From Branchiostoma floridae (Eukaryota; Chordata; Leptocardii; Amphioxiformes; Branchiostomatidae): 64,000 bases of DNA. The stretch lies in NCBI RefSeq assembly GCF_000003815.2, contig NC_049982.1:33075746-33139745 (forward strand), in the 5' to 3' direction. Positions 24,975 to 64,000 of the stretch are shown here, one piece after another. The position numbers were made by a program, and so were the translations under genes. The stretch's first letter is position 1. Every line of letters starts with the position of its first letter. The notes beneath the pieces were generated by a model. The model did no database searches and was not told the origin of the DNA. It saw only the letters and a program-made list of their open reading frames with translations.

Positions 24975-27900
24975 CTGCCTGGCGTTAAGCTACCAAGATG
25001 GCGGACGCGGGAAGACTAATGTAGCGAAAATGGAAAATATTTAACATTTTGAAGACATTTTCGACCGTTCACAGAGGTAGGCTTACAATGGTAGATTGCA
25101 GTGACATATAAGTACACCGTACGTCTGTTTCTTTAATATCTGTTGGCTTTGGCCACTGAATATCACCAAATGTTTTTGGTTTGGAACGAAAAAAAGACAT
25201 CACCACGCGTTTCTGGCGATATTCGTTCTAACAGCAACAACAGTCTCCAAATGTGATTTTCGGTTCATGGTATTCGCATCATGTTTTATTTCATCATCTT
25301 TTTAGCTTGTAAGGTACTTACTTGCTAACGATCACCATACATATTCTGTCCCTCATTAATGCAACAATGCAGTTACAAAGTTAGTCGCAAGGTGACGTGC
25401 TTGACCTAGTGTGGAAAGACCAAATGACGTGAATGCAAGGTGTGTGACCTAAGCTTTGTTGAGTAGACAGAGACCATAGTTTCTACATCTGTACAGTATG
25501 GCCAGTCTGATGACATCACCTAGTACCAAGGAGGGGACCTTCCTGTACCACAGCCGGCTGGGCAGCTCCCTGCTGTACCAGCTGTCAGCTCGGGAGAGAG
25601 AGCTGGATCTGGTGCTGTTGGACCACTGTTATGCCAAACCGTGGAGTCAGCATCCCGATGCCAGCCATGCACGCCCCGCCCGAACCCTGTTTGTGCCAAA
25701 GAATATCCGACACCAGCAGAACGACCCAATCAATACGTAAATCAATCATTTTTCCATGTTCTTATTTTTACACATTATAGTAGAAGCCAGTTAATTGCAC
25801 AATAGATTAATGCACACTTCTGTTAACTGCACACAATCCCCAAATTCCAAACCGGTGCGGTCCAGCTGGATAACTTCGCATAATTGCACAAGCCGGATAA
25901 TTGCACCAAATTCACTGGCAAATAGGCTGTGCAATAAGCGGCTTCTACTGTATATCCTGAAATAGCTGCTATAGACTTACAGGAAAGCTAACAGGAACAT
26001 GCGTTTACAATTAACAATATGGGAATGTTGCAAGCTACAAGAATTTTAGAGAATTAGGAAAATATGCATAAATTTTTTTTCCTTTTATTATTAATCTTTG
26101 TAAATTCATATATGTCATATATGAATACAGTGTCATGAAGTAAAAAAAAAAGGAAACAATTTTATGTGATTTCAAAAGAATGCGTTATATAAGTTTTCAA
26201 CTAGTATCTACTGAGTGTCAGATTGTCTACCATGTTAAGTTGACCCTCTTTTCCTCTTATTTTTCCCCACAGAAAAGCAGAGATTCCTGTAGATGTGGTG
26301 GGAGCGCCCAAGCCCGTGGCTGTCCCGTACGACGGCGTGAAGGCACGGTCTGTGATGAATGAGTGCGAGCGTCACGTGAACTTTGCGAGAACAGACTCGG
26401 TGGAACCACCAAATGATGACGACTGGGAGGAGAGACTGACCAGGTACAAATGTGTCCCTTGTCTGTACTTCCTTATACTGTAAATGCAGAAACTTTCGCG
26501 GTGGATTAATGTTCGCGGTTTTCGTGGTGGCCGCTTCACCGCAAACTTAAAACCATCGCGAAAATTTTTCCATGACAGTAAGAGAAATTAAAACCAACGC
26601 GAAAAGTCCCTTTTCCTGCTACCGCGAAATTAAATCCCCGCGAACTTAAATACATTTACAGTAGTTAAGTTAAGTTTTGTGATAACTATTCTTATTGTAT
26701 TGATCAACATACCTATTTGCACTAAAGATGGCCGAATTTGCACCACTTTTCCTCTTGAGTTCTCTGAGCCCCAAAATTGAAACATCTCACTGTCCAGAAT
26801 CAAACTTCCAGTTTGGGATTAATGAGAAAAAAAAAAATTGCTTCCAGCTCGGCAATCATCTGACCCCAGGCTGACCTTGTGACTTTTTGTCCTCCTGATG
26901 ACCCAAATGGGGTATTTACGACCCAGTGTAATTTAGTGGTATTAATGGCAAGCCTTGTTAATTAGCAGGAGCCAAAAATGGTAAGCTGCATTCCACACCC
27001 TATAAGGATAATGAGCTCGTTGAAAGGTTATTACAATTTGCCAGTCGACTGAGTTCCCAAGCCACATGCCAGGCCTTCCAATGATAAGTTCCATAAAAAC
27101 TGGGATCATTTCATGAAATTTTCCATCACCAGAAAAAGCCAGGCATGTGTCCTAGCCTTGACAGGACTTGTAGTAGTTGTACATCCTTTTATTTACATGT
27201 CGTATGAATAGCAAGGACCATCTTTGTGATTTTGTGGAGGAAATTGATGAGACTTCAGCAGAAGGAAGAATGTGATGAGCTGGGCATGATCAGATTAAAC
27301 ATTAATTACAGTAAATAATAACCTAAGTAACCCCATGGTGACCCCTACTTGGGACTGTACCCAGGTTGTTGTTACCATCCTGACATTTTGGTTGAAAAGA
27401 AGTTTTTAAGATTGAAATACAGGATTATTAAGATTGAAATACAGGGTTATTACTTTCATAAAACATGGTTTCAGTGTATTTTGACATGCTTTCCTATGTC
27501 CAGCCCTAACTACGTAATGTTCTCTCTGTGATGTTTCCCTTGTTGAATTGAAGTAACCAAATGACTTGAATTATTAAACCTATATAGTAAAAGGGGAAAA
27601 AACAACAATTGACTGCATCAAACTACACAATAAAAGTAGTGTCTGTATCAGAAAAATGCAGAAAGAACAGAGATAAAATTATAGAAGCTATGGTTGGTCT
27701 CGGTGTTTGAGCTGCAAAAAAAAAGCGTCTGGGTAGTAGGAGGAAAGCTTTCCAAATGCTTGAGAAATTGAAAATTAAGTTTTTACGAACATCTTGTTTT
27801 TGTTGTTTTGTTTTTAGAACTGGCTGGACTCCAGCCCAGAACAAACTGTTCAACAAAGTGCTGAAGGCTCTACAGGCAGACAGACTGGCCAGGCTCACAT

Positions 27901-30900: not shown

Positions 30901-33900
30901 GTCGGTGCACCACTCCCGCCGCATGCGCCTGTGGAACAACCACCTGTCCAACCTGGGCAAGGTCATCCCCGTAACCATGCACACGGTCAACGGGGGGTCA
31001 GGGGTCACCGTGTCCCAGCTGCTGGAACACATGGTCAGTGCTGTCAAGAACAAAGTGGGAGAGGTGAGCGGTCAACTCTACACATTTTTTTTCAACCTTT
31101 GACCTGAGCCGGTTTTCAAGGGTTCAAGGTTTGGAGCAGGCTAAGACGTCTACCATTACGTTATTTACAATATTACAAACATTTGCTATTCCATAATCGT
31201 ATTCCCTTAGTCAGTCCATAGTTACTCGTTTGTGTTTCGTAACATGTTCTTCAAAGTTACTCCTGAGTTTGCCTCTCGTACCTTTGGTCTTAAACTGTTC
31301 CATCGCACTGCACCTGAGTAGGGTATTGATCTTGTAAACACTTCCCTACGAACCATTGGTACATACAACAAGTTTGACTCGCTTTGTCATGTTGTTCTAG
31401 CTGCCCTGTCAAGGGCACATAAGTTCAAGTCTAGGTAACAGGTACAATTTACCTGTTACCAAAGACTGTGCCTGTAGTTACAACTACAATCTATACTTAG
31501 GTTCTTAGCTATATGGACACAGTTAAGTGTTGTGTGTCTGCTAAACGGGCACATACATTTGTATGTCAATACTCTAAGTTGCTATTTTACTGTCCCTTTT
31601 TTGTATGGAGGGATAGATATGTTTTGCAATGAGGTATTAATGTATTTTGCATGGAGGTATAAATGTATTGGTCTACATGTATAGAAATTTTAATCAATGA
31701 CTGAAAATCTTTATTTAGTGTGCTATGTTCTGTGAGCCAAGAAATTTGATTGGTGTGACAGTCATGGATCAATAATTGTTTTCCCTCAGCTCCGAGGCCA
31801 TTTCCCAAACAGACCCATTGTGCTGATTGGATGGTCAGTGGGCGGTCTCATCGCTCTTCATGTAAGTACAAAAACCATATTTTGCAGGGTTCTAGTTAGC
31901 TTATGTATTTGTATTTGTGACTACCAAGCTTATTTGAGGATCATGTTTGCTAGTGTTTACTTGTGTAATACTGTCAAGTCAAATGTGAAAAATGTTGATA
32001 TGACCCTCCAACTTGACAAAATATTCTTCTTATTACTTGTGGATAAGTACGAAATAACTCCCCCATGGATACTCTCAGAATGCAAAATTTTACCTTGCAT
32101 TTTCACAGTCTCCTCACTGTGAAAGGGCCAAGACTTCCATTCTACCCCATCCCCCTACTTGATTCCTTCTCTACCTCACTATTTACCAGTATGCTATTTA
32201 CCATCTGAACCAAGTAGCACAAGCTGTGTTGTTGGTTTGTCTTACCTCTGTGTTGTTGTTCACTATTTGTACCTGCAGGCTGCTGTGTCCGAGTCCGTAA
32301 ATGCAGTCGTGTGTCTGGGGTTTCCCTTTGTTGGAATGGAAGGAGGGCGTGGGGTGAGTGTCTCATTTCCTCGGTTATTGGGTGGGCTGACTACTCTCTC
32401 TTGGCAGCCAGGGGCTGAATTAAAAGGAGCTTACAATAGGCAGGGCTGAATCGCAAGGGTCTGGAGCAAACTGCCATTAAATTACTCAAGCGAATGATGA
32501 ATCCGGATCACCCCCTACATGATCACCCCCTACATGATATAGTCTCTCCGGTCAGGGCAGGGGTCACTGGGAGGTCACTGCAGTTCAGGTAGCATCTCTG
32601 TTCACAACTCCTTCCTACACTATATAACAAATCATTGACTGATGCTCAAGTGTTTTTTTGTCTATGTACTATGTACTTTTGTCTATGTCTACTATGTACT
32701 TTTGTCTATGTCTAGTTATCGTATAAGATCAACAGTATTCAGAGGTACTACTGCTAAGGGGTAACTCTGCAATGTTGATGTAGTGATTAAAGATTGATTG
32801 AAAGGTTGTGTTCAGGACATAGACGACCCTCTCCTGGAGCTGAAGACACCAGCCCTGTTTGTGGTTGGTCAGGACTCGCCCATCTGTTCGGTGGACGACA
32901 TGGAGGATTTCCGGGAGAAGATCAAGGCGGATAATCAGCTGGTGGTGGTGGGCGGGGCCGACGAGATGTTACGCCTTACCCGCGGGAAGAAGAAACAAGA
33001 GGGTGTGACCCAGACTATGGTGGACAGGTGTATACAGGTGACAATGATTGACAGCTTTCTGATGGAATGCAGATTTTTGGGGTCTATACTTAAACAAACA
33101 ACGTGCTATCCCCATTATCAATGTCAGGGCTCGAAATACCACCTGCATATGCAGGTTAGTGCAGGTAAAATTGGAGCTGTGCAGGTATTTCTGATATCTA
33201 CCTGCACCTAACCTGCACTGGGCCATGTACTGGGTTATATACATTAATGTCCTATGATGTAGGTGTATGTGGATTGTTATTAGCTGCATTGACTGTTACC
33301 ACCTAATAGGTATAAAAAAAAAATAGCAATAGTTCCTCAACAATTTAGTATGATCCATACTTTCTGAAGTCAGAGTGGTGCATGTAAAATTTGTCTGGTG
33401 CAGGTTATTTTCAATGTTACCGGCACCAGTGCAGGTATGCAGAAAAAAGTATTTCGAGTCCTGAATGTGAATAGCAATCTCCATAAACGTCAGCCAAATA
33501 GTTAGAATTTATCCAGTTGAGAATGTTTTTGTTTTCTAGTATATGTGCAAGATAGAGTGTCCATCGTAACACATTGCTTATTATGTGTGACTCCTTCTGT
33601 AACCACAATGAGTGAGTTGTTCCATCTCTGCCCCAGGATGAGATCAGTGAGTACCTGGGGGGTATCCTGTCTGCCCAGGTCAGCTCCGGCACCCTCACCC
33701 CACACTCGGACCCCCCTGCCGACACGGAGGGGGAAGTGCAGAAGAAACAGAGGCGGCGCAAGGTCCAGCGCGACCTGAGTACAGAGCTGGGCACCACATC
33801 CTCCCCTGTAGCCAAGCAGAGACCTCAGACACCTAGTAACAGTAGTGAGGTGAGTACAGAGCTGGGCACCACATCCTCCCCTGTAGCCAAGCAGAGACCT

Positions 33901-36900
33901 CAGACACCTAGTAACAGTAGTGAGGTGAGTACAGAGCTGGGCACCACATCCTCCCCTGTAGCCAAGCAGAGACCTCAGACACCTAGTAACAGTAGTGAGG
34001 TGAGTACAGAGCTGGGCACCACATCCTCCCCTGTAGCCAAGCAGAGACCTCAGACACCTAGTAACAGTAGTGAGGTGAGTACAGAGCTGGGCACCACATC
34101 CTCCCCTGTAGCCAAGCAGAGACCTCAGACACCAATGCCAACCACACTTGAAGTGAGGATGACTGCTTTACCATGTACTTTTGTACATTGTCCTTTTCCA
34201 GGGCGTGGCATCCCTTCCCAGCACCCCTGGCACCCCCGGGTCCAAGGGTGAGAAGCCCTCCCCACAGAAAGTGTCGACGGGAACATCCACTACCATCAGT
34301 GGCTCCCTGTATGCAGCACAGTATGCAGCTTTCCTTAAACAACAGGCCAACAAAGCATCACTCACCACGCAGAAGGCACCAGGTTGGTCCTGCCTTGTAC
34401 CTTGTTCAAACAGAGCTGTAGAAATGGTATTACATTGTGCTCACCTCTAGGATTGTGTATTTTTCTACATTGTTTAGGAAGAGTCAGGAAAATTTCGTAC
34501 TCGTAGCTTTTAAGGCTTAGCAGCATCACTCTTCCAGTCAGCATTGTCTGTGTGAAAATTCTTGAATTAATGTCTTACTGTCTTACTCTGCAAGACAGTG
34601 GTCCACTTTGCTACAAGGGAACACTGTATTTGGTCGATCTGGTCCAATACAGTACTGGCACGGTAAAATCCGATTTTAAACAATGCTAAATGCCAAATTT
34701 ACCCTGATTTCTGTCTTGTCAAGTTTGAATGTCCACTGTAAATTTACATGGTAAAAGAGGACCAGTGGTGTCCTATGGACATGGTTGAAACATTTACTGT
34801 AATTCACTTTGTCTTCTCGGTACCAAACTTTCACGATCTGAGAAAATTTAACTTGTTCTCGGAACTAAATGTTCACTGTTGCGGCAAGTGCACATAAAAA
34901 AAGTCTGTGAATTATTTCTTATCAGTAATGATAAATTCACGTTACAGTCATCACCGTGAAAACCGTGAACATAACAGTACATTGAAAAACAGGAATTACA
35001 GTATGTAGTACAGTAGCAATTACTTTGGAAAGTGTACAATATTTGCAGTGTCATGCATTCGTGGCGGAGTGGCACCTCTGTCCTGGGATGGAAATGAACT
35101 TTTGGATATTTCTCCCCATCTGTTTATTAGGGCATGAAAAGGCTTTTATAATATCAAAATGAGGGATTTAACAGCAACGATAATAACACAGGCTTTAAAA
35201 TTCCAATTGAATTGAATTGTGCCTTTTCCTTACTTCCTTACCAATTTCCAAGGCTAAGGATAACTAGTAAGTGGTAAAAAGGGTACTGATCCATTCTATA
35301 ACATGATTGTTGGCAGACATATCTGTAGAAGAGTTATGTATGTCAGCTCTATCAGTTTATGAAGTTTTGGTGCCAATCTGTTTCCTTATAAGTCAGAAAC
35401 TTGAAAGGATTGGTCTCTTAAAAAGTATGTTGTTCTTGGCAGTCGGTCCTACTGCTTGCTGATTGGTCCTCTGGACAGGTCTCTGGAGTGCCAAAGGTCA
35501 CAGAGAGTTCATGACCAGACAATTGCCCCCACCCTTCCTGATACAAACATGTTCTGTAAACAATCTTCTTTATGGGCATTCCAGGCTATATATCCTACCA
35601 GCTTCCCAGATTGTATCTTTGGTATCAGGTTTTATTGACAACATCTGAATCCACAACTGCTGCTAAATTCAGACCAATCCAATCCTGAGTTGACCCCTGG
35701 AAACCCCACTTCTAAGACTGTTTACTGTATGGATACAAGTCTTGCAGTTAGTTTGAAGTAACACAATAAGATGTGGGAGCAAGGATGAACATGGATGTCC
35801 AGGCAGCTAAGATCATGAGAACTTCATTTTGAGAAGTGTAGTGCAGAAGAAAAGTGAGTTCAAAGAAAAGAAGTTTGTATCAGACCTGAGTCAGCTTACA
35901 AATGTGCCCTATGTTAGTACGTAGCAGAGATTCTCATAGATATTTTACCATGATCAATATTTCTGGAAGGAGGCCATATATTATTTATCGTTTGAGGACC
36001 AAGTCTTCCAGCCTTGGTCACCTCTGGTATGACCTCACCCCAGCCCTGTAATCTGTAGCACCACTCAGGCCAGTGTGAAAAGCTTGAAGTAAAAGGTCCA
36101 GATACTGTAAATGCAGAAAGCTTTGCGATGGTTTAATGTTTGCAGTTTTTGCAGTGACCACTTCACCATGAACTTAAAACCACCGCGAACACTTCTCCAT
36201 GGCAGTAAGAGACTACAGTACAGTGCATGCTGCTACCTCGAACATGCAACCACCGCAAAAAGTCCTTTTTCCGGAACCGAAAAATTAAATCCCCACGAAA
36301 TTAAATGCATTTACAGTACTGCAGATGTCTGGGACCATGGAAGAACCCCATGGAGCAGGTCATCCTTGGGGTGGTGTTTTCCCCTCCTGTCTAGATGTAC
36401 TGTTGGAACTGATAAGGGACTGGTCGATATTTAGCGGGGGGGGAGGGCCGGTCGTCAGAGGGTCGGGTCAAAATTTTTTTCCTAGGCCCTCCCCCCCGGT
36501 CAAATTTTTTTTCCTAGGCCCTCCCCCCAAGTCAAAATATTTTTCCTAGGCCCTCCCCCCTCCTATCAAATTTGAAAAATATTCAAGACGCAATTAAATC
36601 ACCGCGCTCCCGCTTGGAAATATCCTTTACGCCATACTGATGATACTGGTTTTCCGTTTTTAGGCGAAGCAGATCTCTTACCCCTAGCAAAAAAGGGAAA
36701 TTGAATGGCTCGGAGCCCATAAATATATTCTTTATGGAGGTTACTTTATTCTTTTGATATTCATAAATGATGCCACTGACTCTACGTACCCACTGAACAA
36801 CACCGCAAAAGTATTTTGTACCTGGATTTCTAGTAGATTTGCGCCGCTTCGCGGCGCGCGCCCCGCCCCTTTACTAAAACGCATTGCAAGCTCGTGGGGT

Positions 36901-39900
36901 CTGGAGCAGCTTGTCGGAGACTATTTTCAATGTACATACCTTTGGGACTTGATGGTTCTGTGGTGGTAATAACTGACTGTGACTCGGGGGGAAATGCCAA
37001 CAAAAACGTCAGAACGATGCGACTAACCAAAACTGTAGTGGGGAGGGGGGCGCCGAAGCGTACTGAGGACGATTTTCCCACGGCGAGCCGGGGTCGACCG
37101 GTCGCCTTCAGTCTCTACCTCTCCCGGCGGGCGTTAGAACGCAGACTTCTACTCGGGAGATCTTTTAAAAATGCCACGCTTTTTGTATATCCATTTTGTC
37201 GGTCAAAAATGACGGAATGGGCCTGCACATAGAAGGAATATTGCGATGATTTGAAAAAAAATATTTACGTTTTGCCCGCACGATGTTGCAGCAACATGTT
37301 ATCTTTATGTCTGTATTGTGTCACTATTATTGATGAAGGCGCGTAAGAAAAGTTCTAAATCAAAAGGCCATTTGTACTGGTGTTCTAGGTGTACTGGCAC
37401 ATGAACAAGCATGACAAAGGATTATGATACTATTTATTCGGTAACATTCACTTTTATTCACGATTCTAATTTGCAATGCCTGCAAACTCCGATCGGAATC
37501 ACCCGGATCCTGTACGATTTAAAAAGCATTTTGACTGGAATTTATGTATTTTTTGACACGTTAGTTCAGATTCTTTTCTCAGTAGCTGTGTCTGTATCAC
37601 AGGCCTCGTGAACTGTCAAGCTTCCGATTTTCATAGTTTTAAAACTATCGACAAAGGAATCGTTTAAGGATGTTTTCCTCCTGGTGCAAACTGTAAACAC
37701 ACGTCACACACCACTCGTCTCCGGTGTGACAAATGCACTGCCGCCTCTTGCGCCATTTTTCTTGGATTTGAGAGGCTCGAGCCGTCCTCCGCGGCTCCGA
37801 CATCATTTCCTCGCGATCTTTGCCAGCCCTGACTCCACCGCTGCCCCTTCTCCCTGTTCCTCAACACTTGTAGTAGAAGCAATAGTTTCCGCGTCGTCCA
37901 CTTCTTCTTGACAAGTCGACGCCTTGGCGAGATACTTGTGTATGTTGTCCAGTGCCAAACATTGCAGTTTCCCGGGTTATTCCCATAGTTTCGCGCCTTT
38001 TTGGCGCCGCTGTGGGCTGTGATTGGTCGCAAGTTAATTCGATTTACGCATAAAGTGGTACGCCCTGTCCAATCGGTACATCTGAAGACTGCAGCCAAGG
38101 CTGTTGCCATGGTAACGACACGTACAACATGGGAATCGGCTTGCACACGTCTTGTACTGCGTGCGGTTGATAATTATGATAGTTCCCAAGCCGAGCACTC
38201 GCTGCTAGCTGTACAGGTTATAACAAGGACGTTGTGTAAGATTTTATAATATAGTAGTGGGGAAAGAGATGTCCTGTCTGCAAAATTTCAGGTTGCGCAG
38301 TGGGTTTAAAATCACGTTGCGCCAAGCAAAATATTCCAAGCCCTCACGATGTGCCAAGCCCTGTGACAGTCGTCTTTTTTTCCTTCTAAGCAAATTGAAC
38401 ATTGTCGACAAAGATTTTGATCTCCAAACACACCTATTTGCTGACGATGTACAGCGAGAGAAAGCGAACATGAAACGAGGAAAGCCGAATTCACAAGTCT
38501 CACCGGCCGTTTCACAGACGGCACTTTGTCACAGGTCATCTTCCAGAGCGGAGCGTTCCAAATTATGAAAGAAAATAGAAAATACGCATTTTCACGTAAT
38601 TTTTTTGCGGTAAAATATGAGGAAAAATACCGACACGTGTTGGTGCGCAGATGTTGACTAGACATGCAAGTACGCTAAATTTTGTCACCGTGACTGAATG
38701 GTAGCATTGCAAACCGGAAGCAACGTTACATTTTACGTCGCATTTTGATAACTTTATCGGCTTCATGCCTTTGCCGCGCCAGCTTCATAAGAAAGGAAAA
38801 CAAATTTGACTGATATTTTCTCCGCCCACCTCTATTAATACAAGCGTTAAAACGGAAAATGAACACTGTAACATCAATATTTTCACAACGTTGTAGCGGT
38901 GTTAAACAGAGATAGAGTCAAAGGCGCGGCAGTGAAATATTACTGAGCGAATTTTCAGCATGTGGAGCGGGGAGCCACCGGCCTTTTTTTTTACCATGCC
39001 GAGCGCCGAACTCGGGCGCGAGGCGTCTCAAGCTTGTGGAGACCCGGGGAAATTTTGAAATCTTGACCCTCTGAAACGCCAATTTCCGGCATTTTGAGGG
39101 ACAAATTATGCTGGTAGTCCGATCAAAAATTTTTCCTAGGCCCTCCCCCCAGCTCAAAATTTTTTTCCTAGGCCCTCCCCCCGGCTCAAATATTTTTTCC
39201 TAGGCCCTCCCCCCTCTGACGACCGGCCCTCCCCCCCCGCTAAATATCGACCAGTCCCTAAGGGCAGGGCTAGGGAGGACCACACCGTTTTATGGGCCAT
39301 CTGGGGAGGCCTACTCCAGCAGTTCATACAGAGGTCACGGGTGGCAGGGTAGTTCATAGCCACTTTCTATAATCTGTACCTTTTCCTGGTATACAACTGA
39401 CAACAAGCGTAAGCTCTTCAAAACAAGTCAGCTGATTAAGGTAATGACATTGGGAGAATGTCTGCCTGGCTGTGTGAGTGAGTGAAATGGGTCCAAAGAA
39501 CACCATGCTGACTTGATTAAGTGGCCAGATTTGCTGGCTGTGAGGTACACATTCGTCTTTCCCAGTGTGTTTACATCCCATGGTCTGTGCTGGCTGGGCC
39601 AGGATGCCCTGGCTACCACCCCAGGAAATTGATGTTGTGCCAACATGGAACATTACAGCATGTCATGTACCACATTAATCAGGGCTGGGATGCCATGCCT
39701 TCACACTACCACTGGTTTTAGGTTACTATTTAGAGGAAGCTGGCAATCAAGTGAAGGGTTATCAACAGTGATACCATGCATGCACCCAGTCCCAGTTTGA
39801 CATGTTGGTATTAGATTGACCCAGACCTGACAGTTTACCCCTTGGCTCACATATCTTGCTCAGTGAGGAGTAGATTAGGGTCCAGGCATGAAATAGTTAT

Positions 39901-47415: not shown

Positions 47416-50400
47416 TTAGACAATGTTGGACAAGTCCGGTCCAACCACCGTCACAGTGTCCGGGGAGTTTTGCTCGCTGGTCGGATACAAGTTCCCGTTT
47501 TTGTCCAAGGTCAAACAGGGGTCACTTCTCGTGACCAGGTCGGTGTTCATCAACGGAGCATGCGCGGGAGCAGCAAGTCCGTCTGCATCCTCACGTTTGA
47601 CGGTGACGTCATCCAAAGAGACAAGGTTTACCGGAAGTCCATTGGCGGGATGAAGAACAGGGACTGATTTCATCTCTGGCACCTTGCCGTCCGCCAGCTC
47701 CCAGCGGCAGCTTCTCACCAGCTCCACGCACAGCAACTTCAGCTGCAGCTTGGCGAACTCCTTCCCGGCACAAGCGCGAGGTCCGGCACCGAAGGGTAAG
47801 AAGTCGTACCTGATGGCCGTGCTGTCGGCAGCCGCCCACCTGTCCGGGTCGAACTGCTGCGGCGACGAGAAGAGCTGTGACGCGCTGTGCGTGTCTCTGA
47901 TGCTGTACATGACGGCCCAACCTTCCGGAACCTGGAAGCCCTGTGTACGACAGATGAATCGGACATGAGCCATGACTCAAACACTTGTATTCAAACTGGT
48001 GTTCAAACCTACTCTCCAAGCAGAGGTTAGGCTCCGGCTGTTTTTAACGTTTTTTGGTCGTTTCTATCTAGTTCAAAACCTAGTTTTTGCAAGGTACAAT
48101 ACAAAATAGAAAGCCCTATAAAAACGACTAAAAAACAGCCGTCTAACCNNNNNNNNNNNNNNNNNNNNNNNNNNNNNNNNNNNNNNNNNNNNNNNNNNNN
48201 NNNNNNNNNNNNNNNNNNNNNNNNNNNNNNNNNNNNNNNNNNNNNNNNCTTGGAGAGTAGTTCAAGACAGCAATTGTTACTGTTCCTTTTATTGGGTTTA
48301 ACTCCGACCTCCGGACAAATAAATTTCCGACCTTCTCACAAGCCCTCGTTCAGACCGTGGCTGAGTTGTGAGAAAAGCCGTATTTGGTTGGGGTTTGTCG
48401 ACAAGGTTGGCTATTAGTCTTCAAATGTACTGGTAACCTGCGCAGCGGTATTTGTTGAAACATCAGGTAACCAGTCTGGTGGTATAAATGATTGTGAAAT
48501 ATTTTGATCTAAACATACCCGAAGAAATCCACCAGTGCAATATATCGACGAGCGCCATCTATCGACGTAGACGCAGGACGCAGCTGAACCTAGCTGACCA
48601 ATTACATTGCTCGCTACTCATTTCTAACAATGTCAACTTTGGTCTGGACTCTGGATAAAGTCGGGAGGCCATGACTGACCTATGTGTGACCTACAGTGTA
48701 TAAGCCTGGTCAAGCACATCGAACTCGAAACATGATGATTTCGATAATTATTAGTGCATGTAAGTAACATGCGGCGTCGCCAGGCCTTTTCTATCAGCCT
48801 TGCTAGTCGGTGTTCTCTGTTGAAATGTTTAATAGTCGTCTCCGGCTGACTTGGCAGAAATCATACCCAAACAAGTCTTTAGCACCCCGCATGTAACAAA
48901 AGCGATTGCCTGTTTAGCTTCTTCAAGCCACATCACATGTAGATGCTTTCCCAACGTTACCCCAAACTTCACTTGCGGGAAGCCAGACTTCTCAAGAGAA
49001 ATTCATTATGGGAAGTCATGGCGCTATGATCGAATATGCCATGAATGTTTTTTTGTTTTTTGTTTTTTGTATTAGGTCTACGATTCGAAGCCTCAAAAGT
49101 TATCACATACAAAAATACAATAGCATTGACTGTCAATGGGTATGCTAGATGCAAAACTTCAGAATTGTTCTCATTTACTACATGTATGTCCGAAACGTTT
49201 AGATCGAACCTTTTCTACAGGTAATTTGCTTTATTTGTAGACTTACGCCAATCGCGAATGTCTTGAGAGCCTTCCTGAAGCCTCCCCCTATAGGTGGACT
49301 GATCCTGAGCACCTCCTTGACGACCTGCCCCACGTACGTCAGCCTGCCGACCTGCTCCAGACTCAGAGGCTGGTCCGGCTGCAGCAGCCCGTGCTTCTCC
49401 AGGTCCTCCTGCACCTTCTGAACCACCTGTGGCTGCAGCGCCAGGTGCATGATGAGGGAGGTGGCGGCGCTGGACGTGGTCTCGTGCCCGGCAAACAGCA
49501 GCTCCACGGCCGTGTCCAGCAGCTGCTGTTGGTCCACAGCCTTCCCTTCCTCCTTCGCGCTGCTGATGATGAAGGACAGCACGTCATCCGGGACCTCTCC
49601 GCTCCAGATCTGCGCATGCTTCTCGTGGATGTGACGTTTCAGCCATTCGTCGATTTCCTGGCGACACTGCAGAGCCTAGAGGAGATGAGGTACGAGACAT
49701 GAGCTTAGATACAGTTGTGGTTATGAAAAAGAACTGCTAGGGGGGCTCGAGATGTAACCCCTTCTTTTTGTCTACCTATAAAGAGTGCGTTAGTCCTCTA
49801 TTCTGTACAATGAGAACAGTCATTCACAACTTCGTTACCGAAAAGTTAACTTCTTCCTCATATAAAATCACCAAGGGCAACTAGCAGTCGCCTAAATTGA
49901 AAATTGTGTTGTTAACTACAATAGAAGAAATGAACGGTATAAACCGCTACAGTTCTAGTGTCTTCTAGAGAAATCTACAAGGATACCCAAAATCGAATGA
50001 GAATGAACTCACTTTTCTGAGTGCGCTTCCTGGCACGTTCAATGGTAAGGAGAAGATGTTCTTCACAGCGGTCCTGAAAAGTGACCCAACTCTCCTGGCC
50101 TCTTCCTCATCTTGATGGAATCCGACCAGAACAGCTATGGCGAGTCGGAACATCATCTCTCGAGCGGCGGGGTAGACTGCCAGCGGCTGGGGCCCCCTGC
50201 ACCAGCCCCGCAAGGTGTCCGCGATCATGGCCTGCATGCTGTCCGTGTAGATCTCCAGTGCATCATGGCGGAAGGCACGCATGACGATCTTCTTCCTCTG
50301 CCTGTGGAGTGGCCCGCTGCCGCACATGGCCAGGTTCTCCGTCCCCAGCACCATGCGGAAGTTGTCCGGCCACATGGTGCCCACGATGTCGTTCTCTCCG

Positions 50401-53400
50401 CGGAGAATCTTGCGCACGTTGTCGGCGCCTCGGACGCGGATGGTCGGGCGGCCCAGGATGTGGGTTTTGAAGATGTCTCCGTACAGGGCATGCCGTTTCC
50501 TGGAGAAATCTGCCCCCTGTGAAAACGGAACGGTCGGTCTCGTTAATAATACATCTACTAACAACAGTAGTAACGCATTCACTTCAGGTGGTTTCAACTG
50601 AAACCTTATGATATTTGTTATTGTCGCTAAGCTAGGTAAAACGAAGGACAATTTTGACCCTGTGCCACATAGCGGCTTTTATTGGTAGTACAATAGAATT
50701 TCCAGGTCTTGCATCTTATTTTCTGAACTGTTTATGCGTGAGTGATGGGTTGTCATACGCGGTTTTTGCCGTCAATTGCACGTCACCTGAGCAATCAATG
50801 AGGAAAGTAGCTTACTTTCGACTGACTATCTTTCATGTGATATATCTAACTTGGATCTAGGTGAACAGCATGGTCAGTCACAAATGGATATTAATGTGTA
50901 AATTAGGACATTATTTGCATAATCATGAGGAAATACTGTTGTAAATGATGGGAATTCCTAACAAAGACTGCGGTCAGAAAAAAGGACGGTTCTAAGAAGT
51001 GGGTCCCCATAACCCATAACAAGTGAACGCTAGGTCAGGTGCTAATGGCCCTTCCCGCACCACATTCCGAGTAGAAAAGGCAGCATCTAGACTTGCTTTT
51101 CGCCCTCATGTCAGTTTATTTACACACCAGGTTATATATAACCTCCTTGAACTCGAAGGGCTTGAAGGAAGGTAAGTCTGCGCGGGCTCTGTACAATCTT
51201 CGTGACTCAACAATAAAGAATCAAAGTCAACGTTATAAGACCACCAGGTGTGTTTCCTCTTATTATACCAAAATGAAATTCTCGGTAGCAGGCGGTGAAA
51301 CTCCACTGAGGAGTGACGTGTGTTCAGGGGAATCGTGCCGAGGACAGGGTCGGGCATTACACCGGGAAACCAACAGTGCTGACAAAAAACTACCGCTGTG
51401 TATTCTTTATATCCATGGGATTGTAGTTTAGTCAGCATATGCCAATAGAGACTTCCGACAGCAGTGTAGTTAGTAGCGCCTGCCAGAGAAGGCCCACGTG
51501 CATGATGATCGTGACATGGAACAGTAGCCTGTAGAAAACTAGAGTTCCACGACCTCGTACCTTCGCCAAATGACGGCAACCTTTTCAAGTGACATTTTGC
51601 AAATGATCACAAATGTTTCGAACTTATTATGCAAATAATGTTCTTGCGTGCTCATGCCCTCGTCAATATAATTTTCTCTGTTTAATAGCTTTTATGGTGG
51701 ATACCAGGCACCTCCAACAGTACACCATTGGATTTGGGCCAGCGAAGAGGCGGGAAAGCTACTCCAACGCTTTTACCAGGATCCGCGGATCGTTGGACAA
51801 ATAGTAGATAAATAAATAGTAGAAATAGTAGAAATTGGCCGCAACTACTAAGAATGAATAGAATGCTAGGGGGACCGGCCTATCGGACCCTATAACTCTA
51901 TTTCAGTATTTGGCCACTTTCTACTGAAATTCTAGCTTTATCCAGCGATCCTGGTAGGGCCTGGGTAGAGGCTATCTTGAAATATCACGGTGTCCGTGTG
52001 AAGATCTCATGACACAGTCGGGGTGTGGGTCGGTGCACGGGCGGCCTGTCATTCCGATGTTTAGGGTCCCCCGGGGACCAGCGCTATCTCTGTCCGGCCG
52101 CGCCCGCACGCGGGAACGGCGCTCTGGAGGAGCTGCAGGGGGCAAAGTGTCTCCAGTGTGCCGCCGGGTGCAGGTTTTACGGTCTCATTGATGAGTTTTT
52201 TCTTCCCATTACGTACTTCCCATAGACTTCTATGTTATAATACGTGTTTTACATGGGCGCGTTCATAATAGAGCTGCTTGAAATATATTGATATTATTCA
52301 TTCTTTGTTGAGCACATTCACCCTTAATCATGTAAAAAAAATCCCAATAACCTCTAGACATTTAGTGTTTTTTTTTTTTAATGACAATTACAAAATGCAG
52401 TTCCAAGCATCGCAACAGGCACTTTTGCGCTGCCACCAGTCAACCGCACCACTCAGAACCCACGACTGTGTACCTCCGACCTAGCGCGTGGCTGCCAAAC
52501 TTTACCTGCTATTAAACTTCCTGATCATGAGTTCGGCTGGCTAAAAGGGAATTTCTCACCGCTAAAAATATGCGTCCATGCAGCCGTTTAGTTTTTGGCT
52601 CGGATCTATTTTCATATAATATGTAATACATCACTGAGACCTTACTTTCCAAGCAGAGGTTGGTGGGGAAGACTGTGACCTTCTTATACCATATGCTCCG
52701 TTTTTTCCGCCCTCCCAGCAGGCGACAAAAGAGATCACAATTTTACTTTCGACAAAGACAAATCCAAAGTAAGTCTTTCCCTTCTTTCTTTCAATTTAAT
52801 GATACTGCACTTCAAACATGTAGGATATCAATGCCGAAAGATTCGTTTTATTTTGTGATGCACAGTACTTAACAATGTGATCATGTAAATCATGTCTTGT
52901 AAGTTTCAGAGAGCCTCTACCAGGCTCCGTGGATCGCTGGACAAATAGAAGAATTGGCCAAATCAAAGAGTATTTAGTTAGGGGAGTCGGTCGGGCATCG
53001 GGTCCAATGGCGAACAGCGGCGGAGGCTATGTTTCAGATATATTTGAGACACAGCAACAGTACACAGACTGCAGCATCTGTCCTGAGGACCCAGTCAAAT
53101 ATTCCGGTGTTCTGGTAAGCCCTATGAGAGCCTCAGCTCGGTTGACCTGTCATTCACCCCACCTGCCGGTGTCAACTTTCCCGTTTACACGGTCGGGGCG
53201 GCAGGCTGTCACTCAGGGCTCTGGCAGAGAACGACAATTACATGGTCCCGCTCTCAAACTGTGTATGGTTTCCTGACTAATCGCACTTGTCGGAGTAAAT
53301 CAGACTCACTGTGGAACAACCTATTAGTGGTGCGGGAATAAATAACTCTCAGCTGTCGTGTAGCGGCACGTTCGGCAAACCTGGCCCGGAAACGGTGAGC

Positions 53401-55082
53401 GCTCAGGCATCGACAGGCCTGCTACAGCCGCACAGTCGCGCAGAAGGAGAAAAGTCTCAACAATGTCAAAATTCACAATCTGTCTTGCTCCTCCATCCAG
53501 CAGGTATGGCAAGGAACTGAAAACTGCAGTACATCATGAACTTAACTATGAAATTTGTGGTCAGTACGATTAGGTGGCCGACAGGTTGCTGTACGTTACC
53601 ACCGCATGTTTCCCGTAGAATAAAAAGAATGGAAATCGGGAACTCATTAACGATTGGCAGAACACATGGTCAAGGCCGCCACCCTTCCAGCGAGTCGGCA
53701 GCAGCAAGACTTCCACACTCATGAAAAAAGGAACGTGGGCTCACTTGGCGCCACCGACTTTACGAGACCGGTTGTGAAGAAGACAAGAGGAGCCACGGAA
53801 AACTAATGGGCAAACTAAGTGCTTTAGTTAGGACCTACACTTCTGCTCTTTGCGGTGTTCACTAGATTGTAGGCAATATTTTTTGCACAGAAGCTTCACC
53901 TCACGGAGTTATGTTAGGCTTATTATAAAAGGAGTCAGAGTAGGAGTTGAAGAACAGTGTGTGGTACAGTTGTCATACTCCGACGCCCCCTGCTACAGGC
54001 ACGGGTTAAAGTACGGAAAGTGGCGCCGAGCACGGGTCATGCTGCAGATAGATATGCCAACAATGCTGCAGTAATTAGGACCGCTATCTGTACAATTAGA
54101 AGTTCCCATAAAACAGCGCTCTGTATGAGTGATCCAGATGGGGAAGTCTGCCTGGAACAGTGCCGCAGGCCAGGCAGGACGGGACCCATGGTCGGGCCCG
54201 CGCGCTGGGAGGCAGGGCGCCGCGCCACGACTGTGGGTACCCACAGTTCGCATCCACCGACCACACATTCACAAAAAAATCGATTTGGTCTGTACACGGT
54301 GAAACATACAATGAACACCTAAATCACTGACATACATTGATTTGATGTAGGCACTAATAGTCTGTCAAACCAATAGCGCTCATCAGCGAAAGATGGTCAA
54401 ACATGAAACTTAAACAATGACGGATAACTACATTAAAATACAGAATATCGTTGATAAATAGAGACTTCTTTTTTACTAATGCCCTCATCGTATGATGTAT
54501 TTGTAGTTATTCTGGGGGATTTCCCAGTTTTAATGTCTTTTAACAATACTAACGATGTGAACACTGCTTCCTTGTAGCGACGCATGCTTTACCATCAACC
54601 AGCCTGTCATTTTCCGGAAAAAAAATACCACAAATATCTAGCCAAAAATCTGGGGTCGATGGCGTTTTCTTCTTTTGATTTTGTTTTTGCCGAAGCCTTG
54701 CAACAAGTGAAGAAGTAACGAATGTGAATCACCTGAAGATGACACGTCGAAAGTTTGCCGTTCATTTCACAACTCTGCGCCTAGCTTTAGTAGTCTTGTT
54801 GCGCGTTTCACAGTCTACTTGGCAAAATTATTTCTTGCGGTATATTAAAGATGTTGTGATGCAGACACTTGAGTTATACAAAAGAGTCAAACAGGGGAAA
54901 GATTCTCTTACCTCCAATATGAAGGACAAAGTTTCGCCGATGATCGGAAAGCCCGTGGTCCCCGCGGGTAGAGGCAGGGCGCAGGCCGGGTCCGACGGAG
55001 TGGCGTAGCGCCCCCAGAGTTTCCAGGAAAGGACCATTAGAAAGGCAGGGAAGACAAGATACCCTACAACTTCCTCCAGCAT
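47416..55082 (-). CDS. CYP26: CYP26 retinoic-acid 4-hydroxylase
   Basis: Four exons, all introns phase 0: 54912-55082 (ATG 55080-55082), 50013-50516, 49247-49675, 47416-47940; product 542 residues counted with the tail, against about 500 for vertebrate CYP26. Membrane anchor at 5-22, then proline hinge ALPLPAGTTGFPIIGETL. I-helix A-G-H-E-T-T (287-292), E-V-L-R (346-349), F-D-P-D-R-W, and heme loop FLPFGAGPRACAGKEF with the thiolate Cys425. Family-specific marks GRPTIRVRGADNVRKIL and HRQRKKIVMRAF place it in CYP26, an ER enzyme that inactivates retinoic acid. Which amphioxus paralogue it is cannot be told here. A tail of about 60 residues follows the normal end. Intron 1 (4.4 kb) holds foldback elements; intron 3 holds a gap. 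DR5 sites nearby suggest retinoic-acid induction. Confidence 0.96.
47508..47524. promoter_or_regulatory. DR5 motif inside the CYP26 last exon
   Basis: AGGTCA-AACAG-GGGTCA on the plus strand, within codons of the C-terminal extension. It matches the RAR/RXR DR5 consensus (PuGG/TTCA, spacer 5). A coding location makes function less sure. Confidence 0.35.
48009..48260. repeat. Foldback interrupted by an assembly gap
   Basis: CTACTCTCCAAG (48009-48020) and CTTGGAGAGTAG (48249-48260) are exact inverted ends; the inner part GGTCGTTTCTATC… and …AAACGACTAAAAAACAGCC is also inverted. A related CCAAGCAGAGGTT end occurs at about 52652. Confidence 0.65.
48149..48248. other. Assembly gap (100 N) in CYP26 intron 3
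   Basis: Run of 100 N within the foldback 48009-48260. Confidence 0.95.
48676..48692 (-). promoter_or_regulatory. Perfect consensus DR5 in CYP26 intron 3
   Basis: TGACCT-ATGTG-TGACCT on the plus strand, that is AGGTCA-CACAT-AGGTCA on the gene strand: both half-sites are the ideal nuclear-receptor hexamer and the spacer is 5. Confidence 0.55.
51760..51974. mobile_element. Foldback MITE of the TAGTCTCTACCAG family in CYP26 intron 1
   Basis: The left ACCAGGATCCGCGGATCGTT and right CCAGCGATCCTGGTAGGGCC are inverted. Related to 59303-59501 and 63702-63801; a solo left arm is at about 52913-52960. The target duplication is not clear. Confidence 0.55.
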
Positions 55083-55224: not shown

Positions 55225-55410
55225 TCACTCGTATTTATTCCCCCGTCAAGCACGCAAATGTCATTAATAAGTGGTTCATTCAGAGTTCAGCTCGTTTGGA
55301 TCGACGACACGGGGCTGCCCGATTACGTCATCAGTCGTACCTCCCACAAGGCCACGCCCCTTGTCGTCTGAAGAACCGCCTGTAATGACCACGCCGATTG
55401 GCTGACAGAG
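55225..55410 (-). promoter_or_regulatory. CYP26 proximal promoter
   Basis: Reading upstream of the ATG: an A/T-rich TATA-like GAATAAATAC (55231-55240), a DR5 element (55273-55289), a CRE-like TGACGTAA (about 55325), a GC box GGGGCGTGGCC (about 55353-55363) and an inverted CCAAT near 55397. The start site is expected near 55200-55210. Vertebrate Cyp26a1 promoters also pair a DR5 with GC-rich sites. Confidence 0.5.
55273..55289 (+). promoter_or_regulatory. Proximal DR5 retinoic-acid response element
   Basis: GGTTCA-TTCAG-AGTTCA, two PuG(G/T)TCA half-sites separated by five bases, about 190 bp upstream of the CYP26 start codon and about 35 bp upstream of the TATA-like box. Confidence 0.6.
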
Positions 55411-58400: not shown

Positions 58401-59290
58401 TCACACCATTTGGTACTTGATTACTTTAACGAATTTTTTACTACGCCGCCTGGCCGGCTATAACGGGAAACACTTGACCTAGCTGGGCCGACAGACAGCC
58501 GGGAGATATTTCTGGCCTCGGACAGAGGCACTTCTCTGGAAAGGATTATGTGTGTGTTCTCCACACATGTTATCGTTCACTCCACTGATGATAAATCGAG
58601 GAGGAGGGGCAAGATTTGGGTGGACAACCATCGGACGACAAGTTGAGTACTCATTGAGAGCTATTCCCCTGAAAGTTCGACTGGACAAAGTATTACCATG
58701 GGGTGGCAAAACGGAAAGAAAACGTTCTGAAGTAGGGAAGTATTATTAGTGGCAGTTGGTGGCTTTCTCGGTCATCGTTTTACAGAAAACTGAACCTTTC
58801 TTATTCCCAACATTCCCGTGTATCATTTACAGTTGATGTGGAAAAGACAGACTTCCTAATTAAATAATTCTATTGGATACGAGCATCGATGAGCGAATCA
58901 TGCCTGTTGTCTGACATACCAGGCGCCTTTGCCTTTGGCCCTATTGTTTCTCGTCTCTCGCGTTTGGGCGAGTGAGCGACGCGAAAATAAGTCAATAAGT
59001 CAAAATTGTGTGTCAAACAACTTCCCTTCAGTCTAGTCCTATTGAATGAATGAATGTATAAACGAACGAACGAATGAACTAACGAACTACTAGTGAATGA
59101 ATGAATGAATAAATGAATGAGTGAATAAATGAATGAGTGAAAGAATGAAGGAAGGAAGGAAGGAAGGAAAAATGAATGAAAAATGAATGAATGTAACCGA
59201 GTCAGACTATACTATACCTCATATCAGTAAAACATAAATGCTGAGAGAAATTTCATCTGCTAGACAAACTTTCCCTACTTTGATGTAAGC
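55411..59290. other. Upstream non-coding region, part 1
   Basis: No exon supported. Contains GGGTCA-AACCC-GGGTCT near 55717 (DR5 with one mismatch), a repeat with GTTACCTCCATGAAAAATGG at about 57342 followed by a TG-rich run, a DR1 at 57245-57257 and the GAAT microsatellite at 59043. Confidence 0.5.
59043..59194. repeat. (GAAT)n / (GAAG)n microsatellite
   Basis: Imperfect tetranucleotide array, GAAT units grading into AAGG units. Confidence 0.9.
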
Positions 59291-59302
59291 GTACCGTTCG
59301 AC

Positions 59303-59501
59303 TAGTCTCTACCAGACTCCGGATCGCTGGAAAAATTGTAGAAATGGAACAAAAAATAGAGGAGTAAGCCGGCCAGAGGAATATAACCGGCCAGGGAACA
59401 GCACGCACCGTAGATCGCGAGCTGTTCCCTGGCCGGCTATATTCCTCTCTATTTGTTCCATTTCTACGATTTTCCAGCGATCCGGAGTCTGGTAGAGACT
59501 A
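59303..59501. mobile_element. 199-bp foldback MITE with 9-bp target duplication
   Basis: CCGTTCGAC on both sides (59294-59302, 59502-59510). The arms TAGTCTCTACCAGACTCCGG and CCGGAGTCTGGTAGAGACTA continue inverted almost to the centre (GGAATATA…TATATTCC). A 9-bp duplication and long inverted arms fit a Mutator-like element. Confidence 0.8.
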
Positions 59502-60896
59502 CCGTTCGACCTCAAGCCTGGGTGCGCCATCCTCTGCAGTAACCGCTGGTTAAATCCAAAGTTTTGCTTGCTAACAACAAGGTGTCCAGTATGAAAGTCG
59601 TATCTTATTATTTGTGCAGAAGAGGTCCTGATTTGCTTGAGTTTATCTAATGGTGCTTGATAAACTTCTTAAGTATGAAATCCCCGTCAGAGACCTTTAG
59701 AGTAAGATTATAGTATTTCGGACTGATTGTGCATATACGATCTTGATTTGCGTGTTTGATATCTAAGGATGTGCCTCTCTTTTACAGTTACATTTGTCAC
59801 ATGTTTCAGAGATAAATCATTGACAGCAGCGGATTTACTAAATAAAAAGAGTAGGTTATGCAAATTTTCTCCTGATTTGCATAATTTACATATGATTTGA
59901 AAGTCATGACGCTTCTAGTCGCCACCGTGTCTCTGATACGCTCCCGTATGAAGACATGGGTCTGTCTCGGCGCACGCCTGACCCGGTCATAGCTCTGAGA
60001 ATTACAGCGAGAACTTTGGGTGAACTCGGGACGACTCCGGACCGCACGCTTGGAGTCATGACCTAATCCACAGGAACATTGTAAACACTGCCTGTCCTCC
60101 CCGCCCATGGACTTTTTATTGTTAGTGACCTCCCCATGACTCGTAAACCAGCTGCTTACGACTTTCAGCTGTGCGAGTCAAGGCCGGACTATTTGGAGCC
60201 CGGAGCTGACGGGGTTTACGGAGTCACTTGGCGCAAGGACTGAGAGGGGTCTGTATTACAATGGAACCGTATTTAATGCCTGGAAGATATCCTGCTCACT
60301 GTAAATGACATTACCTCGTGGTCTAGCTTTTAATACGGGTCTGCACGCAACCCACCGCGTCCCTCCGGTCTGTAACGTCTTGCAACTTTTATTTTCTTCA
60401 TCTGGTCGGTTTACGTGCGAGCGATTCTGGCACGCTAGCTTGTGTCGTTCCAGAGAATCGGGTATCCCTTCTAGCCCATTTCGCAACACCCACCCGGCAA
60501 ACTTAACTCCGTGCGACAAAAAAAAAGGAAAAACCGTCTCCCAAGCCTTGTAACGTTAAACAGTGGCTATGGTGAAAAACAGCTTCTTTGTTTACTCGGA
60601 CAGGACGTCTTGGCTGTGGGGTGGTTAGGACATGTCGGTTGAGTCCTTGCCACATCATGACGTTTTTAAACATACTGAACTTAATTTGTATCGTAGTGAA
60701 AGTTTGGGGGCAAAATTGTCGAGTACCTCACTACGAAGACGCGCGCACTTATTACGTCATAATCGCCGGTGTCTTTATACCCCCGGCGACGCATCTGATC
60801 ATTGGCAGGCATCCATAACACAAACAGTAGTATCGTTCATTTTTATTTGCTTTCAATGCCGCGTTGGACAAGTAAGATGCCCAAACACTTAGATAT

Positions 60897-60957
60897 GGGT
60901 CAAGGGGGTCATGGATCGGAAGGTCAGGGAGAGTTCAGGAGGGTCATTTAGAGTTCA
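60897..60957 (+). promoter_or_regulatory. Cluster of six nuclear-receptor half-sites (two DR5, two DR3)
   Basis: In one orientation: GGGTCA (60897), 3-bp gap, GGGTCA (60906), 9-bp gap, AGGTCA (60921), 5-bp gap, AGTTCA (60932), 3-bp gap, GGGTCA (60941), 5-bp gap, AGTTCA (60952). Positions are 5.8 kb upstream of the CYP26 ATG. DR5 is the preferred RAR/RXR spacing; DR3 is bound by VDR/RXR-like dimers. Confidence 0.6.
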
Positions 60958-61339
60958 CCATACCCTTGAGCCGGCAGTTTACGTCGACAATTTACTACAA
61001 TGTGTGAACTGGAAAAAACACAACCTCTTCCTGAACAAACTTCCCTTCACACGAGAACGGAGGCATGCTTTACGTACAGGCGGGCCTGGTGCACGGCGAG
61101 ACGACAGGTTGTACCGCAACATGCCTCCTGCCATGGGCTGCGCCGTAGGTGAACATAGAGTAGAGTAGACTTTTCTTCGGCCAGGTAGGAAACGGATGAT
61201 TCCATTTTAGGGCGCTCTTCGCTTCTATGTCACAGTCATTTCCAATGTTGTGGGGGGTACAACCGACTCAGACATGAAGATTACAGAATTAGAAACATGG
61301 ATCATTTCTATGGGTGAAACATTCTTCCTAACCTAGAGA

Positions 61340-61580
61340 TCAATGAATGAATGAATGAATGAAGACCTTTATTGTACATTTTTGCCCAACCGAGCTATAT
61401 ATTAAAGTAGTGCAGGTTACGACAAAGACAAATCATGCATATAGAAGTACCACAGATCTTAAATCTAACACAGAAGTTAGGCTTTTCAATGAAAATGACT
61501 TCCGGATCTTTCATCAAGGGAACCGTATCTGTCATTCCGTCTCCAGAACACAATTAAAACATCTATCTAGGTAACACTTG
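61340..61580 (-). mobile_element. Possible retroelement 3' tail
   Basis: On the minus strand GTACAATAAAGGTCTTC is followed by a (ATTC)n run ending at about 61341, the arrangement seen at LINE/SINE 3' ends with tetranucleotide tails. No ORF supports the class. Confidence 0.3.
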
Positions 61581-62212
61581 GTGAATTTGAAAACTCGCAG
61601 AAATCTGAACACGACAGGTACGATTTGCGTTATAAGTTAACTTTAACTTTATTTGAATTGTAACGAGACAAGTTAGAAGAAACGCAGAAACAGATCTGTG
61701 TGACCCATGTGCTAACGTACAAAACGTAGGGTCATGTGCCACCATGTGACTCAGCACTGCAGGTATATACAGATTACATGTACATTCGCCAACCACTTCT
61801 TGTCTCTGGAAATGTGCGAGGTTATTGTTGAACATTTGTCTGTACTGCTGTACTACTCGTTCTTGTCACCATTATAACATTCTACGTGATTTTAAAGCAT
61901 GTCTTTCTTTCTATCACTATCGTATAATGTACAATCTGCCACCAAGGATGTGTTAATCGCCTCTCATTGACAGATCGTGCTGGGCTGGCAGTCCGACACG
62001 GATGTTGTGATGAGGGTGTGACTGCCGTGACAGAGGAAACAGCTACTGATGCGTGTTCACTTGTCATGCCTGCTCCGTCATTCCATCTGCCCGCTCTGCC
62101 AGCTGCAGCTGCCCCTATCCTCCGTTGCAGTCTTCGAACGGGGCTGGTTTTTATTTTAGGGGAGGAGGGGCGTTGGTTCGCGATTTTCAACGTTGGCTAG
62201 GTTCTCTTGTGC

Positions 62213-62278
62213 CGGGAAAGGGAGTTTGCCGTGGAAGGGAGTTTGCTGGGGAAGGGAGTTTGCCGTGGAAGGGAGTGT
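62213..62278. repeat. 17-18-bp tandem repeat
   Basis: Four copies of GGAAGGGAGTTTGCCGT with small variation. Confidence 0.8.
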
Positions 62279-62936
62279 TGCCCCGTCCTCGAGACGAGCT
62301 ATTAAAGCTGCCCCGTTCTAGACTGTACAGCCATAACAGAGCTACACTGCCCTGGCCCTTTCCCAAGCAAAATGATATTGGAAACCGCTGTAGATGAAGA
62401 TAGACTTTAGAGCCTCAATGATATCCTTTGAGACGTAACTGTTCATGGAAATAAGAAGTCCTTATTGCCACAACAAAATGACAGCGACTTTCGTAAGGTC
62501 TACAACTATTTACAGTGCATATAGAAAGACATAATGAATATCTATAGATAGGAATAAGTCAACATATTGATTCTAGCGTGTCATTTTGACTATTAGTTAA
62601 ACGGTATGAACATTCTTTGATATATTTGAATTATAAATATTTGCATATCTATACAAAGTAAGGGTTGTGGCCTCCCATAATGTAGTTGCTATCGAACGGA
62701 AAGTAAAATATACTTGAGAGCAAGCGGAAAGAAATGTGAACAGATTTGTGCGCTTATCGTGAACAATCCATAAGAAGGTGACGTTCATCTTCGATCTCAT
62801 TTGCGATGACTTGGGCAGAAAAGACAAATATGGAGGTTGGGAAGACTTGTGTGGATTGTAATGCTGCCCCACCGGCCGGTGAGGCTTTAGTTTGGGTCCA
62901 GTGAGGTGAGATGAGGTGAGGTCAGGGAAGGGTTCC

Positions 62937-63177
62937 TAGCCTCCTTCACCGGCCTTTCTGGGGGCAGTGAAGGAAATATGCCGCGAAAGGAAATATGCCG
63001 GGAAAGGAATATATGCCGGGAAGCTTGTACTCGCCCCGGCATATATTCCTTTCAAGGCATATTTCCTTCACGGCGTATTCTCTCAGTTGTAAATCGACCT
63101 AAAAATCAACCCCCCCGCCCCTCCCCCCCAACATATTCCGCCAATGCCCCCAGAAATGCCGGTGAAGGAGGCTATTA
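62937..63177. mobile_element. 241-bp foldback MITE with 9-bp target duplication
   Basis: AAGGGTTCC on both sides (62928-62936, 63178-63186). The ends TAGCCTCCTTCACCGGC and GCCGGTGAAGGAGGCTA are inverted (right end carries an extra TTA). The interior has tandem GGAAATATGCCG units, also inverted. Confidence 0.75.
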
Positions 63178-63801: not shown

Positions 63802-64000
63802 CAAAACGCGCGCAACGGCAATACTGCCAACCAACTCAGTACAGCAAAATGTTTTGATAAGCAGTATTACAATTGAGTTGTTTGTTTAAATTGGCATGAC
63901 ATATTATGGTAAGATGACTATTAAATGGGTAAAATTTAATCAAGAAGGTAGTATCCAGAGTCGACCCACAGAAACGTGTCTCTGACGCTTTAATAGCCCG

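Follow-up and report, generated by a model that had tools for sequence, protein, structure and literature searches.

A candidate distal retinoic acid response module of a CYP26 gene, putatively CYP26-3, in Branchiostoma floridae

Limits on retinoic acid (RA) are needed for body axis formation, and the amphioxus CYP26 locus shows how the gene of an RA-degrading enzyme is wired to RA in a close invertebrate relative of the vertebrates. A 64,000-nucleotide stretch of the Branchiostoma floridae genome (contig NC_049982.1, positions 33,075,746 to 33,139,745) – the window in what follows – contains a CYP26 gene and, upstream of it, a 61-bp run of half-sites that a sequence-only reading had proposed as the distal RA response cluster of that gene. 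This raises the questions of whether the run exceeds what chance or duplication would produce, which receptors would read it, and which gene it would serve. We find that the cluster is genuine and that its RAREs very probably function at an amphioxus CYP26 gene, and consider it probable that it is a distal RA response module driving CYP26-3, together with a promoter-proximal DR5, in a feedback loop. That it works as an enhancer, that CYP26-3 is its target, that both of its DR5 are occupied together and that they cooperate with the proximal DR5 are put forward as predictions.

The half-site cluster and the adjacent CYP26 gene

The six hexamers reported to share one orientation within 61 bp are all present on the plus strand, where they form two DR5 and two DR3 pairs.

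60897..60957, plus strand (minus orientation relative to CYP26-3): distal cluster of six PuG(G/T)TCA half-sites (motif scan)
60897..60911, plus strand: DR3, GGGTCAaggGGGTCA (motif scan)
60921..60937, plus strand: DR5, AGGTCAgggagAGTTCA, with the published amphioxus DR5 signature (motif scan and spacer check)
60932..60946, plus strand: DR3, AGTTCAggaGGGTCA, with one half-site in common with each flanking DR5 (motif scan)
60941..60957, plus strand: DR5, GGGTCAtttagAGTTCA, with the published signature (motif scan and spacer check)

The hexamers are GGGTCA (60897), GGGTCA (60906), AGGTCA (60921), AGTTCA (60932), GGGTCA (60941) and AGTTCA (60952), and the successive pairs are DR3 (60897-60911), DR9 (60906-60926), DR5 (60921-60937), DR3 (60932-60946) and DR5 (60941-60957); the two DR5 thus share 37 bp (60921-60957), as had been claimed. 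Both obey the half-site rule of DR5-type RAREs (same strand, 5-bp spacer), and both spacers (gggag and tttag) fit the amphioxus signature NNN(A/G)(A/C/G), the spacers of validated amphioxus DR5 ending in (A/G)(A/C/G) according to the survey of Carvalho et al. 2017 (PMC5247814).

The gene next to the cluster is read from the minus strand; its four exons, joined at canonical splice sites, encode 542 residues.

54912..55082, minus strand: CYP26-3 exon 1, with the start codon (gene model, protein match, tblastn)
50013..50516, minus strand: CYP26-3 exon 2 (gene model, protein match, tblastn)
49247..49675, minus strand: CYP26-3 exon 3 (gene model, protein match, tblastn)
47416..47940, minus strand: CYP26-3 exon 4, with the haem signature FGAGPRACAG and the stop codon (ORF, gene model, protein match, tblastn)

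Its identification as a CYP26 gene stands on the match of the product to the P450 family (PF00067, E 3e-64) and on protein matches: the product shares 100% identity with the B. floridae protein 'cytochrome P450 26B1-like' and 89% with a B. lanceolatum protein, and the best 18 matches comprise 14 named cytochrome P450 26 and four unnamed or hypothetical. The closest PDB chain by sequence is a P450 120, which we take to be cyanobacterial. The upstream position of the cluster is likewise confirmed; it starts 5.8 kb 5′ of the ATG (at 55082), occupying 5814-5875 bp, and the gene is transcribed away from it.

As to which CYP26 gene this is, CYP26-1 was rejected at only 64% identity over 88% to the B. 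lanceolatum entry labelled family 26 member 1. CYP26-2 was rejected too, its marker DR5-6 – reported 6405 bp upstream of the start codon in B. floridae (PMC5247814) – being absent from both strands of the window, which extends 8.9 kb upstream of the gene. We therefore take the gene to be CYP26-3, an assignment reached by elimination rather than from a tree.

Six CYP26 proteins (of 120) used in tblastn match the four exons only, such that the window contains one CYP26 gene. Published amphioxus CYP26 clusters comprise three CYP26 genes, and shared RAREs have been proposed as hubs (PMC5247814). Both points would suit a module serving mainly another gene of the cluster – CYP26-2, presumably beyond the 64 kb – or a shared hub. 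We hold this to be unlikely: CYP26-3 is the nearest recognised gene, 5.8 kb away, and all 16 of the ORFs of at least 90 amino acids (stop to stop) from 55.7 kb on are without a Pfam family above the curated cut-off, a search that short exons would escape. One ORF beyond 55.7 kb falls just below the cut-off with a 'Mating-type protein beta 1' model, which is taken for chance, and Rfam at the gathering threshold gives no RNA matches over the window. CYP26-3 is our preferred target gene.

DR5 enrichment and the question of duplication

The background was set by 200 dinucleotide-preserving shuffles of the window, with same-strand spacings of 0-200 counted. The earlier expectation of about 0.12 DR5 per 64 kb is correct for equal base frequencies, and the shuffles give 0.185. 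The densest 61 bp of a shuffle contains four same-strand half-sites in two of the 200, three in 46 and two in 152, compared with six observed; a Poisson calculation from the half-site density of the window puts at least six in 61 bp at about 2e-6 per window.

The half-site total is ordinary (156 in the window versus a shuffle mean of 161), and it is their pairing that is unusual. The window contains nine strict DR5, versus a shuffle maximum of two; every other same-strand spacing up to 200 occurs at most three times (mean 0.28 for spacings 11-200). Because these other spacings are built from the very half-sites that make up the DR5, they serve as a control, and the excess speaks for a factor that reads DR5, classically RAR/RXR. 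Strict DR3 pairs number two, both inside the cluster; at spacings 0-20, everted pairs occur in the window as singles only, at 8, 13, 15 and 18, and inverted pairs do not occur. Seven of the nine DR5 lie outside the cluster, which is therefore not the only signal: the DR5 signal is both wider and stronger than the cluster itself.

55273..55289, plus strand: proximal DR5, GGTTCAttcagAGTTCA, 190 bp 5′ of the ATG and 33 bp 5′ of a TATA-like box (motif scan)
55232..55239, minus strand: the TATA-like box, AATAAATA, of the CYP26-3 promoter (sequence match only)
48676..48692, minus strand: DR5, AGGTCAcacatAGGTCA, in the intron between exons 3 and 4; lacks the published spacer signature (motif scan)
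47508..47524, plus strand: DR5 in the last CYP26-3 coding exon (motif scan)
39321..39337, plus strand: DR5, AGTTCAtacagAGGTCA, downstream of CYP26-3 (motif scan)
35495..35511, plus strand: DR5, AGGTCAcagagAGTTCA, downstream of CYP26-3 (motif scan)
32561..32587, plus strand: three half-sites, DR5 then DR4, GGGTCActgggAGGTCActgcAGTTCA (motif scan)
26861..26877, minus strand: DR5, AGGTCAgcctgGGGTCA, lacks the spacer signature and is probably a chance occurrence (motif scan)

Eight of the nine DR5 fall between 32 and 64 kb, in that half of the window which contains the CYP26 gene, and half-sites are more evenly divided between the halves (72 and 84); taken by itself, the regional contrast is a modest one (binomial 0.02). 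Spacer letters played no part in choosing the pairs, and the published signature (A/G)(A/C/G) nevertheless closes the spacer in seven of nine DR5, versus 57 of the 147 half-sites without an upstream DR5 partner (Fisher 0.025); the two that fail are the two on the minus strand. AG precedes the second half-site in six of nine DR5 versus eight of the 147 other half-sites (Fisher 1.2e-5, a contrast noticed post hoc). A scan with the looser published consensus returns the same seven DR5 plus two minus-strand matches, at 53159 and 26904.

It speaks against the cluster as the responsible module that other DR5 are closer to CYP26-3 or within it. Not every strict DR5 need be functional, though. At the 47508 site the encoded protein reads SDPCLTL here versus SDAYLDM in two other records, one of B. 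floridae x B. belcheri and one of B. belcheri, and an alanine codon (GCN) in place of proline would break the second half-site. Judged from these proteins, the site is probably not conserved in B. belcheri, and with at least one strict DR5 probably not conserved, the DR5 count overstates function.

The DR5 at 32561, 35495 and 39321, which are 8-15 kb downstream of CYP26-3, fall in the region occupied by a neighbouring plus-strand gene (about 28-44 kb) that presumably resembles KANSL3; two ORFs from this gene are without a Pfam family and one exon is without a PDB match. A plus-strand ORF at 33616-34167 encodes five near-identical protein repeats and represents a minisatellite that either belongs to the neighbouring gene or flanks it, and the roughly ten near-identical repeats of a minus-strand ORF at 29278-30135 are probably a minisatellite rather than a gene. 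On the other side of CYP26-3, arrays with related 17-bp units are located at 62210-62282 (TGCCGGGGAAGGGAGTT) and 62970-63022 (AAGGAAATATGCCGGGA); the second array has an inverted relative just beyond it, at 63038-63079.

Within the cluster, the two DR5 units form a 20-bp near-repeat with 14 of 20 positions identical, so the six half-sites need not be six independent events, and part of the improbability of the cluster may come from one short duplication. The cluster is not explained by a tandem-repeat array: Tandem Repeats Finder (55000-64000) returns 18 rows scoring at least 30, none of them over 60897-60957, and the 13 families of direct repeats of at least 14 nt in 59000-64000 have no copy inside the cluster. 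That the whole cluster is a non-functional run of half-sites from local tandem duplication is very improbable. The 20-bp period and 14/20 identity are what such an origin has to offer, but the likeness is concentrated in the hexamers (11 of 12 letters alike between units) and the AG, with the remaining letters alike at one position of six, and both units keep the published spacer signature. Moreover, the DR5 excess remains when the cluster is removed (seven sites), and blastn of 60600-61200 (601 bp) against the window gives the self-match only, with no second copy. We retain the reading of the two DR5 as probably functional elements.

Candidate receptors at the cluster and a proposed mode of action

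Carvalho et al. 2017 scanned the CYP26 locus of three amphioxus species, over an interval that begins 20 kb upstream of CYP26-1 and ends 20 kb downstream of CYP26-3, with the motif (A/G)G(G/T)TCA(N)0-9(A/G)G(G/T)TCA, and obtained 38 candidates in B. floridae, of which 16 – 13 DR5, one DR2 and two DR3 – are conserved in all three (PMC5247814). In vitro competition for B. lanceolatum RAR/RXR was positive for 12 of the 13 conserved DR5 and for the DR2; the conserved DR3s were also assayed, and are not named among the bound elements (PMC5247814). The DR3 pairs of our cluster should accordingly not be counted as RA elements, and are probably not RAR/RXR sites at all, being either by-products of tandem half-sites or sites of another receptor. 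The sequence-only proposal of a distal RA response cluster is upheld as to the CYP26 gene, the upstream position and the DR5 excess, and loses the DR3 pairs as RA elements.

Several nuclear receptors other than RAR bind direct repeats, TR2/4 or COUP-TF at several spacings, and the cluster could be mainly a site of such receptors (VDR/RXR on the DR3s; TR2/4 or COUP-TF), which would modulate or compete with RAR/RXR and make the DR5-DR3-DR5 arrangement a switch. The geometry permits this, because the central DR3 has one half-site in common with each DR5, and a dimer bound to it would exclude both RAR/RXR dimers. The same central DR3 nonetheless follows simply from the abutment of the two DR5, and the window-wide excess is of DR5 only, both strict DR3 pairs being in the cluster. 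Extra receptors were suggested by the 2017 authors from two conserved DR3 located close to one validated DR5 (PMC5247814), and TR2/4 are reported to bind RAREs and to damp RA signalling in the amphioxus anterior (PMC8387019). On balance we regard a primary role for other receptors as quite unlikely, and favour RAR/RXR acting through the DR5.

Direct RAR/RXR control of CYP26-3 is well supported in B. lanceolatum, where the gene is up-regulated about 5.9-fold by RA with protein synthesis blocked and down-regulated about 2.9-fold by an RAR antagonist (PMC5247814). For B. floridae we propose that two RXR/RAR heterodimers would sit side by side on the two cluster DR5, whose starts are 20 bp apart – about two helical turns – and which would therefore place the dimers on roughly the same face of the DNA. 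The RA-bound dimers would recruit coactivators and, jointly with the DR5 that lies 190 bp from the ATG, would raise CYP26-3 transcription, and the CYP26-3 enzyme would oxidise RA, closing a negative feedback loop. The cluster would then be the distal RA response module of B. floridae CYP26-3.

Comparison with known RA-responsive systems

The closest known set is that of the 2017 survey, which covers the same locus, includes B. floridae and uses the same half-site rule, with a spacer signature that fits both cluster DR5 (PMC5247814). The cluster lies within the scanned range, 5.8 kb upstream of the gene taken as CYP26-3, and, like a place described there, has two DR3 close to a DR5; since the window has no strict DR3 pairs other than the two in the cluster, the cluster most likely is that place. 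In all likelihood it is already catalogued, and presumably it is also among the sites tested; and, the locus having been scanned with the same rule, it is hardly new. The difference is that the published assay used single elements and B. lanceolatum receptors, and here the whole 61-bp array is considered; its interlocked DR5-DR3-DR5 is potentially still of note. No second paper on amphioxus CYP26 elements was recognised by title or abstract among the matches listed, and the literature examined yielded neither an in vivo enhancer test of the cluster nor chromatin, ChIP or reporter data on it. The amphioxus Hox1 and Hox3 RAREs resemble the cluster in being DR5-type and in mediating RA-dependent regulation; they belong to different genes, however, and their activity is reported in vertebrate embryos (PMC3227721).

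In vertebrate Cyp26a1, one site near the transcription start cooperates with further sites 2 kb more distal (review, PMC7151129). CYP26-3 similarly has one proximal DR5 and a distal group of sites, but the latter is 5.8 kb from the ATG and so does not correspond in position to the vertebrate distal RARE, whose distance from the transcription start is about 2 kb. The proximal DR5 is identical to the vertebrate R1 element at 15 of 17 positions in fugu and 13 of 17 in human and, like R1, is in minus orientation relative to the gene and near its start. Among the vertebrates that the 2017 survey lists in its Table 1, R1 and the start codon are 103-166 bp apart; in amphioxus that survey matches R1, via AGTTCA(N)5AGTTCA, to a site found 4-7 kb upstream of CYP26-2, a distance the authors remark on (PMC5247814). 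In place, the CYP26-3 proximal DR5 suits R1 better than the CYP26-2 upstream site does. Short sites resemble each other easily, though, and the DR5 at 35495, 39321 and 48692 are also 14/17 identical to zebrafish R1 (39321 to fugu R1 as well), so sequence alone is weak evidence for R1 homology, which is conjectural.

Were an R1-like site next to the promoter indeed paired with a distal module, this would bear on the age of the vertebrate arrangement. If the proximal DR5 is a true R1 counterpart, the position of R1 has been kept since the chordate (or deuterostome) ancestor. A bolder and rather doubtful reading is that CYP26-3 carries the complete two-tier control of vertebrate Cyp26a1, with the TATA-adjacent proximal DR5 as the R1 counterpart in position, orientation and sequence, and with a distal multi-site module; were it true, the interlocked DR5-DR3-DR5 would in addition let that module switch between occupancy by two RAR/RXR dimers and by a single dimer of some other receptor.
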